38,321 nt of DNA from Candidatus Brocadia sp. (GTDB taxonomy: Bacteria; Planctomycetota; Brocadiia; Brocadiales; Brocadiaceae), in the NCBI GenBank assembly GCA_021646415.1, contig SOEU01000027.1, positions 1 to 38,321 of the forward strand, in the 5' to 3' direction. Positions 10,831 to 14,640 of this stretch are shown here, piece by piece. The number at the start of each line of letters is the position of its first letter. Position 1 is the stretch's first letter. Under the pieces are notes generated by a model. It was not told the DNA's origin and did not search any database. It saw only the letters and a list, made by a program, of their open reading frames with translations. The translations under genes were made by a program, and so were the position numbers.

Positions 10831-11012
10831 CAAAATAGCAGAAGGACGTACAGGGGTTTTTAATTATCATCAGGTGGCTATGTTAACTTTGCCCGCTTTG
10901 TTTATCGATAACATTATTCGTTTCTAGCATTACCACGCACGCTTTACAATACGGGCTTCGTAATCTATTTAACGTTGCCACTGGGATAAGCACACTTACC
11001 TCTACTATAAAA

Positions 11013-11060
11013 TGTGTCATGGCACACTTGTGTGACGTTACACTTATGTGCCATGTCACA
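11013..11060. promoter_or_regulatory. Array of TGTG-N-CACA dyads, possible operator cluster
   Basis: TGTG-N6-CACA occurs at 11013-11026 and 11047-11060, with TGTG-ACGT-TACA between them at 11031-11042. Start-to-start spacing is 18 and 16 bases. The two outer dyads also pair with each other over 13 bases with one mismatch. The block lies about 150 bp before the riboswitch leader. It may be a binding site for a dimeric regulator or a cruciform-forming repeat. Confidence 0.3.
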
Positions 11061-11210
11061 CTTTTTATGCCTTGCCTGAATATACTCATTACTATATATT
11101 TCTATTGTAGTGTGATCATGAGTGATTAAAATCTAAAGCTTAATGATTTATTTCTATAAATTCTTTTATCTGATCTTTATTCTGGCGTTTTATTTGCGCA
11201 ATATTCAAAA

Positions 11211-11357
11211 TACATTACGATAAAGGCAAACCCTGAGCGATTGGGGGACGCAAAAGTAAAGGGTCTTTAGGCGTACAGGGAAGTACGTCGATAAAGTAAA
11301 TTCATAAGACAATAAGGAAGTAGTCTCCAAAAGATAGCCTTACTGCCGAAGATGTTT
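11211..11357 (+). promoter_or_regulatory. GEMM (cyclic di-GMP-I class) riboswitch of the kelch-repeat gene
   Basis: The core reads ACGATAAAGGCAAACC, a CCCTGAG...GGGG hairpin, then GGGACGCAAAAG and, after an extended P3 arm, AGCC...GCCGAAG at the 3' side. This is the known GEMM-I layout. An outer pairing ACAT/ATGT closes it. The last bases of the aptamer (AGCCTTACTGC) are the 5' arm of the following terminator, so ligand binding should block termination and switch the gene on (inference). The P3 arm is about 25 nt longer than in the minus-strand copy at 323-443. Confidence 0.88.
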
Positions 11358-11387
11358 AGATAAATATCTTTGCAGTAAGGCTTTTTT
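11336..11387 (+). terminator. Riboswitch-controlled intrinsic terminator
   Basis: AGCCTTACTGC (11336-11346) pairs perfectly with GCAGTAAGGCT (11372-11382), followed by a T-run at 11382-11387. It stands 38 bp before the ATG of the kelch-repeat gene and overlaps the aptamer's 3' strand. Confidence 0.88.
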
Positions 11388-11425
11388 GTTTTTAAATGCC
11401 ATTTAATTTTTAAGGAGGAAGCAAA

Positions 11426-14400
11426 ATGAAGTTAAAGTGGTGGATAATAAGTCTTTTGGGGGTTATGTTCTTAGTCGGACAAGCGGGATGGGCAAAGGCA
11501 TGGGGACTAAGTATTGAAGAGAGGATGGCATGTCAGCGGGCCATTGAAGAGGTTTACTGGAGCCATACCCTATGGCCAAAGGAAAATCCATCTCCAAAAC
11601 CTCAGCTTAAAGAGGTCATGTCAGAAGAGGAATTGAGAAAGAAGGTAGAGAAGACCGTAAAGATGTCCAGGGCCCTGGAAGTAATCTGGAAGCGTCCCGT
11701 CAGGGGGTACCAACTCCAGGCAGAGCTTCAGCGTATGGCTGAAACTACGAGGAATCCTGATATGCTGCGAGAACTCTGGCAGGCGCTGGGTAATGACCCT
11801 CATCTGATAGCGGAATGCCTGGCCAGACCCTTACTTGTAGAGAGGCAGATCCAGGAATGGTATGACTTTGATGAACGTTTTCATGGGAAATTAAAGAAAC
11901 GGGTGATGAGGGAACTGAAACTGCATGATAAGGTAGGGGATATGAAGGGGATGGATGGAGAGTACCGGGAAGTGGAATTGAGGAAAGGGAAGTCTCATGA
12001 GGGTAAAACGGCAGAAAAGAAAGATGTGCTGGAACTTTCTGAAAAGGAATGGGCAGAGGAGATAGGTCGTCTTGCCGGTGCATTTGGGGCAAAGGGACGG
12101 GATGCGATGAAATTGCCGCTGAGGCGAGTTGCCGGCGACCGCTCCGCTCAAACGGTCGATGTGAAGGGACCGGATGTGATGAAATTGCCGATGAGGCGGT
12201 TAAGTAAGTTACAGGAGGATGAGGAGGGATTTTATGTAGTAGGAGTATTGAAGAATGGGGCAGATCGGGTGAGAATAGCAGTAGTGGAGTGGCAGAAGGT
12301 AGGGTTTGATACGTGGTGGTCAGAGGCAGAGGAACAGTTTACCGCAGAAATAGAAGGAGAAAACTATGCCTATAACTTGCCTGAAATTACCACGACAGCC
12401 CTTGTCCCCCTTGCGCCGAGCAACACCTGGTCAGCAACGGATGCAGGTGCGCCTGCCCCTACTGCCCGATATTGGCATACAGCGGTATGGACCGGTACGG
12501 AGATGATTGTATGGGGTGGTGGCGATAGGGGAGGACGCTACAATCCGGCGACAAATACATGGTTTGCTACAACCACAACGGGCGCCCCTACTGCCCGATC
12601 TTTCCATACAGCGGTATGGACAGGTATGGAGATGATTGTATGGGGTGGTGGCGATGGCCTCAATACGGGAGGACGCTACAACCCGGCGACAAATACGTGG
12701 TCTGCCACAAACACAACGGGTGCCCCTACTGCCCGACGTTCCCACACAGCGGTATGGACCGGTACGGAGATGATTGTATGGGGTGGATGGAATTGGGATA
12801 GTGGTGATGACTTCAATACGGGAGGACGCTACAACCCATCGACAAATACGTGGTCTGCCACAAACACAACGGGCGTCCCTACTGCCCGATCTTTCCATAC
12901 AGCGGTATGGACCGGTACGGAGATGATTGTATGGGGTGGATTTGGTAGTAGTACCGGTGACCTCAATACGGGAGGGCGCTACGATCCATCGACAAATACA
13001 TGGTCTGCCACAAACACAACGGGCGTCCCTACTGCCCGATCTTTCCATACAGCGGTATGGACAGGTACGGAGATGATTGTATGGGGTGGAATTGATACTA
13101 ATAGTTATAGTTGCGTCAATACGGGAGGACGCTACGATCCATCGACAAATACGTGGTATACTACCACTACAACGGGCGCCCCTACTGTACGAGATGAGCA
13201 TACAGCGGTATGGACAGGTACCGTAATGATTGTATGGGGTGGTGAAGATTACGGTTATTATTCCCTCAATACGGGAGGACGCTACGATCCATCGACAAAT
13301 ACGTGGTCTGCCACAAACACAACGGGCGTCCCTACTGCCCGACATTCCCATACAGCGGTATGGACAGATACGGAGATGATTGTATGGGGTGGATGGGATT
13401 CGTATAGTGGTGATGACTTCAATACGGGAGGACGCTACGATCCTGATATAGACTCGTGGGTAGCTACAAGCATGGGTAAACGGAGCGCCCCCACTGCCCG
13501 AGATTCTCATACAGCGGTATGGATAGGTACGGAGATGATTGTATGGGGTGGATACAGTTCTAGCTACCCTTATAACCTCAATACGGGGGGACGCTACGAT
13601 CCAGCGTTAAATGCCTGGAGGTTTACAAACACTACAAACGCACCCAGTGCCAGATATGACCATACAGCGGTATGGACAGGTACCCGGATGATTATATGGG
13701 GAGGTGAAGACGTTTACGGTCCTTCAATAACCGGGGCTCATTATAACCCATTAACCAATAATTGGGTAGCTGTTACCAACAAGACTGGTGCCCCCACTGC
13801 ACGATATGGCCATACAGCAGTATGGACAGGTACGCGGATGATTGTATGGGGTGGAGTCGGTAGTACTGGTTACCTCAATACGGGAGGGCGTTACGATCCA
13901 GCGGTAAACTCGTGGCTTCCTACGAACACAACGGGCGCCCCTACTGGCCGATATGAACATACAGCGGTATGGACAGGTACTCGGATGATTGTATGGGGTG
14001 GATCCGGCAGTAGTACTGGTTATCTCAAGACGGGAGGGCGTTACGATCCAGCGGCAAACTCGTGGCTTCCTACAAACCCAACGGGCGCCCCTACTGCACG
14101 ATATAAACATACAGCGGTGTGGACAGGTACCGTAATGATTGTATGGGGTGGACACGGCGGTACTGGTTACCTCAATACGGGAGGACGCTACAACCCGGCG
14201 GCAAACACGTGGTCTGCTACCAACCAAACAGGCGCCCCCACTGCCCGATATGGCCATACAGCGGTATGGACAGGTAGCGTAATGATTGTATGGGGTGGAA
14301 GAGGTAGTACTGGTTATCTCAATACGGGAGGACGCTATAACCCAGCAAATACGTGGTCTGCTACCACCACAGCAAGTGCCCCTGCTGCCCGATATGAGCA

Positions 14401-14491
14401 TACAGCGGTATGGACAGGTACGGAGATGATTGTATGGGGTGGATACGGGAGCACTGGTTACCTCTATACGGGAGGACGCTATTTCCCTTAA
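11426..14491 (+). CDS. Secreted protein with 14 kelch-like beta-propeller repeats
   Basis: This is a 1021-residue exported protein. A signal peptide (1 to about 25, basic start, hydrophobic core, AKA cleavage site) leads into a charged helical region (about 27-330) of unknown fold. From residue 345 to the end come 14 repeats of about 48 residues. Each has the core PTARxxHTAVWTGTEMIVWGG, then a short variable stretch, then NTGGRYxPxTNTW. Fourteen blades would fit two seven-bladed propellers. The last repeat lacks its final strand segment, which fits closure of the ring by an N-terminal strand (SNTWSAT, 332-338). AAGGAGG precedes the ATG. A GEMM riboswitch controls it, so it probably acts outside the cell in surface attachment or matrix (inference). 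No enzyme motif was seen. Confidence 0.9.
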   Translation: MKLKWWIISLLGVMFLVGQAGWAKAWGLSIEERMACQRAIEEVYWSHTLWPKENPSPKPQLKEVMSEEELRKKVEKTVKMSRALEVIWKRPVRGYQLQAELQRMAETTRNPDMLRELWQALGNDPHLIAECLARPLLVERQIQEWYDFDERFHGKLKKRVMRELKLHDKVGDMKGMDGEYREVELRKGKSHEGKTAEKKDVLELSEKEWAEEIGRLAGAFGAKGRDAMKLPLRRVAGDRSAQTVDVKGPDVMKLPMRRLSKLQEDEEGFYVVGVLKNGADRVRIAVVEWQKVGFDTWWSEAEEQFTAEIEGENYAYNLPEITTTALVPLAPSNTWSATDAGAPAPTARYWHTAVWTGTEMIVWGGGDRGGRYNPATNTWFATTTTGAPTARSFHTAVWTGMEMIVWGGGDGLNTGGRYNPATNTWSATNTTGAPTARRSHTAVWTGTEMIVWGGWNWDSGDDFNTGGRYNPSTNTWSATNTTGVPTARSFHTAVWTGTEMIVWGGFGSSTGDLNTGGRYDPSTNTWSATNTTGVPTARSFHTAVWTGTEMIVWGGIDTNSYSCVNTGGRYDPSTNTWYTTTTTGAPTVRDEHTAVWTGTVMIVWGGEDYGYYSLNTGGRYDPSTNTWSATNTTGVPTARHSHTAVWTDTEMIVWGGWDSYSGDDFNTGGRYDPDIDSWVATSMGKRSAPTARDSHTAVWIGTEMIVWGGYSSSYPYNLNTGGRYDPALNAWRFTNTTNAPSARYDHTAVWTGTRMIIWGGEDVYGPSITGAHYNPLTNNWVAVTNKTGAPTARYGHTAVWTGTRMIVWGGVGSTGYLNTGGRYDPAVNSWLPTNTTGAPTGRYEHTAVWTGTRMIVWGGSGSSTGYLKTGGRYDPAANSWLPTNPTGAPTARYKHTAVWTGTVMIVWGGHGGTGYLNTGGRYNPAANTWSATNQTGAPTARYGHTAVWTGSVMIVWGGRGSTGYLNTGGRYNPANTWSATTTASAPAARYEHTAVWTGTEMIVWGGYGSTGYLYTGGRYFP
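12458..14488 (+). repeat. Tandem array of 14 kelch-coding repeats of about 145 bp
   Basis: The coding DNA is repeated almost exactly in places. For example, CATACAGCGGTATGGACAGG and GATGATTGTATGGGGTGG recur in nearly every unit. Units 2 to 6 are the most alike and units 8 and 9 the most diverged. This suggests recent expansion or gene conversion. The array also keeps the opposite strand open, producing long spurious frames there. Confidence 0.85.
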
Positions 14492-14559: not shown

Positions 14560-14640
14560 TGTAAAGACAGGTTTGAAATCTGTCTCTACACTGGAGAGTT
14601 CAACGATATGGTGCAATCTGCAAGATTGCACCATATCGTT
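14560..14640 (+). terminator. Two hairpins after the kelch gene
   Basis: An 11-bp stem with one mismatch (TGTA-A-AGACAG / CTGTCT-C-TACA, 14560-14590) is followed by a perfect 18-bp stem with a 3-nt loop (14602-14619 and 14623-14640). There is no T-run, so they are not standard intrinsic terminators. They may protect the 3' end of the mRNA or be a repeat. Confidence 0.45.

Follow-up and report, generated by a model that had tools for sequence, protein, structure and literature searches.

The present analysis supports a model according to which the expression of an exported kelch protein in an anammox Brocadia (Planctomycetota) is governed by a transcriptional ON switch responding to c-di-GMP, the protein being a probable contributor to cell aggregation; we put the probability of this reading at roughly 0.82. 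The switch lies within a stretch of 38,321 nucleotides, in the following termed the window, and is one copy of a riboswitch family that is spread over the whole genome and shares a single, nearly invariant design.

The leader of the kelch gene contains a c-di-GMP-I riboswitch aptamer at positions 11215-11350 of the forward strand. A Rfam covariance search of the window assigned it to RF01051 with 51.8 bits (E 1.9e-7), the gathering score of this family being 35 bits, so that the first-pass annotation was right in placing the element in the GEMM class. The Rfam alignment and covariation among 42 paralogous leaders, all from the window's genome, define a stem at 11231-11246 (forward strand) closed by the GNRA tetraloop GCGA (11237-11240), a loop which is present in 39 of these leaders. 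The alignment and the pair counts define stem P3, formed on the same strand by 11255-11265 and 11333-11344 and enclosing an unusually long and variable loop of 67 nt (11266-11332). Over the 42 leaders, both partners have changed at 9 pairs of the aptamer helices compared to a shuffled mean of 2.9, with 1 of 500 shuffles being as high, and 95.9% of their cells are paired compared to 29-48% in slid registers; the conserved aptamer stems are backed by covariation. At the pocket position separating c-di-GMP from cGAMP, the kelch leader carries a G (11225), from which we infer c-di-GMP to be the ligand. Upstream of the switch, an imperfect 31-bp inverted repeat (77%) is found at 11006-11067; it could be either a protein site or the place where the upstream transcript ends.

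The 3' strand of P3 serves at the same time as the 5' arm of an intrinsic terminator (11336-11387, forward strand), detected by folding and as an inverted repeat, in agreement with the overlap of aptamer and terminator described previously. The hairpin formed by 11336-11382 has a folding energy of -27.4 kcal/mol (z -8.7, no shuffle being equally stable) and runs directly into six T residues (11382-11387). In the terminator, 11336-11346 and the bases adjoining them are paired to the segment ending at 11382. Bases 11338-11344 are thus common to P3 and the terminator helix, making the aptamer and the terminator folds mutually exclusive. In a kelch-leader transcript ending at the aptamer, the aptamer fold lies 3.2 kcal/mol above the minimum, and this gap widens to 13-14 kcal/mol once the terminator arm is included; the median gap over the 42 leaders increases accordingly from 4.4 to 17.8 kcal/mol. 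Without ligand the terminator should win, and the ligand should have to act before the arm emerges. The terminator helix is paired to 93.7% in the 42 leaders compared to 37-52% in slid registers and shows no excess covariation in this set because its letters are nearly fixed; the terminator is supported by conservation and energy, the aptamer by covariation. A Shine-Dalgarno sequence, AAGGAGGA, can be read at 11412-11419 (forward strand) outside both the aptamer and the terminator, and control is therefore most likely exerted on transcription. With one strand shared in this way between P3 and the terminator, ligand binding should permit transcription, which upholds the earlier interpretation as an ON switch.

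In the proposed mechanism, when c-di-GMP is scarce, the P3-forming strand AGCCUUACUGC would pair with the downstream GCAGUAAGGCU to form the terminator, and RNA polymerase would halt ahead of the kelch gene. At high c-di-GMP, the dinucleotide would bind the nascent aptamer before the terminator arm emerges, P3 would retain the strand, formation of the terminator would be blocked and the kelch gene would be transcribed. The exported product, acting within a set of 45-50 switch-controlled units, would then probably aid the aggregated state, i.e. granule or biofilm, promoted by high c-di-GMP.

The switch-controlled gene (11426-14491, forward strand), as defined by open reading frame, translation and Pfam kelch matches down to E 1.8e-131, encodes a protein of 1021 amino acids and is, as anticipated, the only gene of its transcription unit. 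No further gene follows closely on the forward strand, the next one being a YceG-family gene on the opposite strand, and an inverted-repeat search revealed a perfect 18-bp hairpin 3' of the kelch gene (14602-14640, forward strand) as a possible transcript end. By simple prediction rules, the N-terminal sequence MKLKWWIISLLGVMFLVGQAGWAKA qualifies as a Sec signal peptide comprising residues 1-25 (11426-11500, forward strand) with AKA preceding the likely cleavage site. Between the signal peptide and the repeats we identified a domain of about 300 amino acids (residues 28-308; 11507-12349, forward strand) missing from the earlier description, for which no Pfam family was matched. Its AlphaFold2 model (pLDDT 89, pTM 0.82) has SurA/PrsA-type foldases in the first 15 VIA rows of the structure comparison with Z-scores of 7.5 to 4.0, values below 8 possibly arising by chance, and unrelated rows scoring below 4; Foldseek returned a PPIase as the best, weak match (E 5.6e-3). 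Together, these comparisons suggest this domain probably being SurA/PrsA-like. The remaining part of the protein (residues 331-1021; 12416-14488, forward strand) consists of exactly 14 kelch repeats according to repeat count, Pfam, model and fold comparison, as previously counted, and is modelled as beta blades (pLDDT 84.8, pTM 0.58). The best structural matches, galactose oxidase and other kelch propellers (Z 27-33), align with about 280-330 of 692 residues, so that the repeats probably build two seven-bladed propellers rather than the single propeller of 14 blades suggested before.

The link between leader and kelch gene is conserved within the genus. Of the eleven Brocadia genomes searched, five encode close homologues of the kelch protein, the nearest relative being that of Candidatus Brocadia pituitae (58%), and a search of related genomes, as proposed in the first-pass annotation, found the switch leader preceding all seven Brocadia kelch copies checked in five genomes, one copy being decayed. 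These seven comprise the window's copy, the decayed second copy of the same genome, one copy each in G001, G002 (B. pituitae) and G008, and two in G005; among further small fragments in G005, L175 gave no match. G002 was recognised as B. pituitae by 2,000 bases that are identical between L154 and L045, and the window's genome is accordingly assigned to an anammox Brocadia. The decayed copy consists of a leader at C11:7316-7465 (46.5 bits) before a broken kelch reading frame, and the leader in B. pituitae has drifted to 37 bits. Just upstream of this drifted leader, at L045:4525-4595, lies the end of a group II intron (RF00029, 51.2 bits). Outside of Brocadia, proteins of the same two-part architecture, SurA-like plus kelch, occur in Acidobacteria, Verrucomicrobia, Fischerbacteria and Gammaproteobacteria, with 11-14 kelch motifs in the ten counted compared to 14 in the Brocadia protein. 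In contrast to the Brocadia genes, these lack a leader of the Brocadia switch family: none of 78 kelch relatives from these groups and others had a convincing leader within up to 5 kb on each side when searched with the lineage covariance model, a model trained on Brocadia that a very different c-di-GMP-I RNA could escape.

The kelch gene had been regarded as the sole c-di-GMP target, a view which we reject: the window's genome (3.8 Mb, 99.96% complete) contains 45 matches to RF01051, 43 of them above the cut-off, and about 45-50 units, the kelch gene among them, are under riboswitch control. A lineage model trained on 42 of the genome's own switches yields about 50 switches; among its 54 rows, three or more are echoes of the terminator palindrome from the antisense strand. 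The RF01051 counts amount to 20-56 in genus-mates, 1-24 in other genera of the family and 0-10 in other families of the order, and are typically 0-3 elsewhere in the phylum, a count of 14 there meaning at least 14. For comparison, about 30 c-di-GMP riboswitches are present in one Geobacter genome. The copies share a common design, i.e. GACAGCCUUACUGCCGAAGAU, a loop, AUAUCUUUGCAGUAAGGC and a U-run, and in all 41 leaders that could be parsed automatically (of 45) the aptamer's 3' end pairs with the downstream terminator arm in the ligand-free fold. Aptamer core and terminator are nearly invariant, and the P3 loops vary greatly in length, often carrying perfect hairpins. We considered these palindromic loop inserts as a high-copy mobile repeat and discarded the idea, one such sequence being found only in two riboswitch loops (at most 3 mismatches).

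The window itself holds a second copy on the reverse strand, composed of an aptamer (331-435) and its terminator (286-435 in total), which matches RF03167/RF01051, reaches 152 bits with the lineage model and scores higher than the kelch-leader aptamer. The remaining 331 bases beyond it contain no open reading frame and end at the contig edge in short inverted repeats; the gene of this switch has either been lost or falls outside the contig. Elsewhere in the genome, two complete switches about 120 nt apart precede a 711-aa Big-domain protein (C7:153506-155331), and two switches about 480 nt apart precede a DUF11 protein (C28:15914-16638); such tandem arrangements could sharpen the response. One paralogue (C9:74491-74600, reverse strand), which precedes ferredoxin and rubredoxin genes, deviates by an A in place of G at the cGAMP-linked position of the pocket. 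A search of five further Brocadia genomes with the lineage model did not recover this variant in front of ferredoxin homologues.

Judged by the first downstream genes, the switches would control, among others, CHRD, Big, DUF11 and SBBP-propeller proteins, peptidases of the S8, M4 and M48 families, a caspase-PEGA protein, an amidase and a UDPGP-family uridylyltransferase, as well as cytochrome c', P460, rubredoxin, ferredoxin and two sigma-54 activators. A polysaccharide epimerase is encoded directly 3' of a STAS-PilZ protein, each being preceded by a separate switch. Signal-peptide-like starts are found in 19 of 40 targets compared to 30 of 128 other nearby reading frames (p 0.005), according to a rough rule that wrongly counted one ferredoxin. 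For at least 11 target proteins, homologues are also encoded next to switches in B. pituitae, where 30 loci plus the kelch locus were compared. The switches probably activate a regulon rich in exported and matrix-related proteins. The genome encodes 12 GGDEF matches, showing that c-di-GMP can be made, and 8 PilZ matches. A switch that scores below the threshold (31.4 bits) but retains its terminator intact precedes a 1726-aa PAS-GAF-GGDEF-EAL protein (C1:386000-386137), a possible feedback loop on c-di-GMP. Another switch is located directly before the alpha subunit of a DMSO-reductase-type-II molybdoenzyme (C18:4771-7600; TIGR03479, 1046 bits), and c-di-GMP may also control respiration in this organism. 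Further switches precede an NHLP-like leader-peptide protein, behind whose gene a likely radical SAM gene is located (C12:92104-93500), and two small Cys-rich peptides (C8:101906-102700), both loci being candidates for c-di-GMP-controlled peptide natural products.

Several alternative explanations bear on the switch itself. The principal ligand of the aptamer might be 3',3'-cGAMP, or it might respond to both dinucleotides, as some GEMM-I RNAs of Geobacter do; aptamers of this class have changed their ligand (PMC9481103, PMC7266159), and the A-pocket paralogue described above shows that the discriminating position varies within the genome. We consider this improbable for the kelch leader, as the G at this position, shared by 41 of the 42 leaders, favours c-di-GMP (PMC9481103), and even an A would not be decisive, Bc2 having an A there and yet being c-di-GMP-specific (PMC4933901). 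OFF switches exist among the c-di-GMP-I riboswitches, an example being Cd1 (PMC9262584), and the element could accordingly work in this direction or act on translation instead of termination. This is very unlikely given that the terminator takes the aptamer's own strand, making a separate antiterminator unnecessary, that the Shine-Dalgarno sequence is outside both folds and that the design is common to all parsed leaders. A decaying, non-functional leader would fit its score, which is below that of most paralogues, its 67-nt loop, the drifted leader of B. pituitae and the broken second leader and gene in the window's genome; however, pocket, stems, terminator and reading frame are all intact at the kelch locus and leader and gene have stayed linked throughout the genus, leaving decay just as little probability.

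A functional c-di-GMP ON switch thus remains the preferred reading of the leader, and the more substantial alternative concerns its product. With the switch working as described, the protein could be a periplasmic folding factor or an enzyme-like propeller instead of a surface or matrix component, which we regard as a realistic prospect though not the favoured one. The closest structural neighbours are SurA/PrsA chaperones for the N-terminal domain and, for the propellers, galactose oxidases and other kelch propellers, consistent with a folding or an enzymatic role, respectively. On the other hand, the chaperone assignment is moderate, as reflected by the Foldseek E-value, and many regulon partners look surface-located or secreted, which argues for the kelch protein being part of the cell surface or matrix.

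Measured systems with a similar logic exist. Bc2 of Bacillus thuringiensis is a c-di-GMP ON switch located before the collagen adhesin gene cap (PMC4933901); it resembles the kelch leader in combining a c-di-GMP-I aptamer and an intrinsic terminator into an ON switch with a single exported output of adhesion type, and differs in its target, a collagen adhesin instead of a kelch protein, and in number, two such riboswitches being described in its strain compared to about 45-50 in the Brocadia genome. Whereas Bc2 was characterised experimentally, the kelch leader is known from sequence and folding. The pilM GEMM-I element of Geobacter metallireducens is likewise a measured ON switch, in which terminator and binding-competent aptamer exclude each other by sharing a strand (PMC9262584), as in the kelch leader; unlike the latter, it has cGAMP as ligand and a pilus gene as target. 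With the RF01051 family the kelch leader shares sequence, stems, GNRA tetraloop and pocket letters, and it deviates from the family at large by its long variable P3 loop and by one terminator design being used in dozens of copies.

Anammox granules play an important part in the nitrogen cycle and in wastewater treatment. A link between c-di-GMP and anammox aggregation has reportedly been established (Guo et al. 2017). The literature searched revealed no output genes of c-di-GMP in this process, and no paper on c-di-GMP riboswitches in anammox bacteria or planctomycetes was found in a search that was thin on subscription papers. Pure cultures of anammox organisms are lacking (PMC11224092); for such organisms the uniform switch family provides a direct and testable list of output genes, and the leaders are individually accessible to in vitro assays that need no cultivation. 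What makes these findings interesting is above all how large the regulon is, as this could contribute to explaining c-di-GMP-driven anammox aggregation. In the broader model, for which we see an even chance, Brocadia would run much of its aggregation and extracellular programme via one recopied c-di-GMP ON switch, with about 50 default-off units per genome forming one of the largest bacterial riboswitch regulons, including feedback on a GGDEF-EAL enzyme, a PilZ protein and sigma-54 activators, and with the SurA-like/kelch protein serving as a matrix component in part of the genus.
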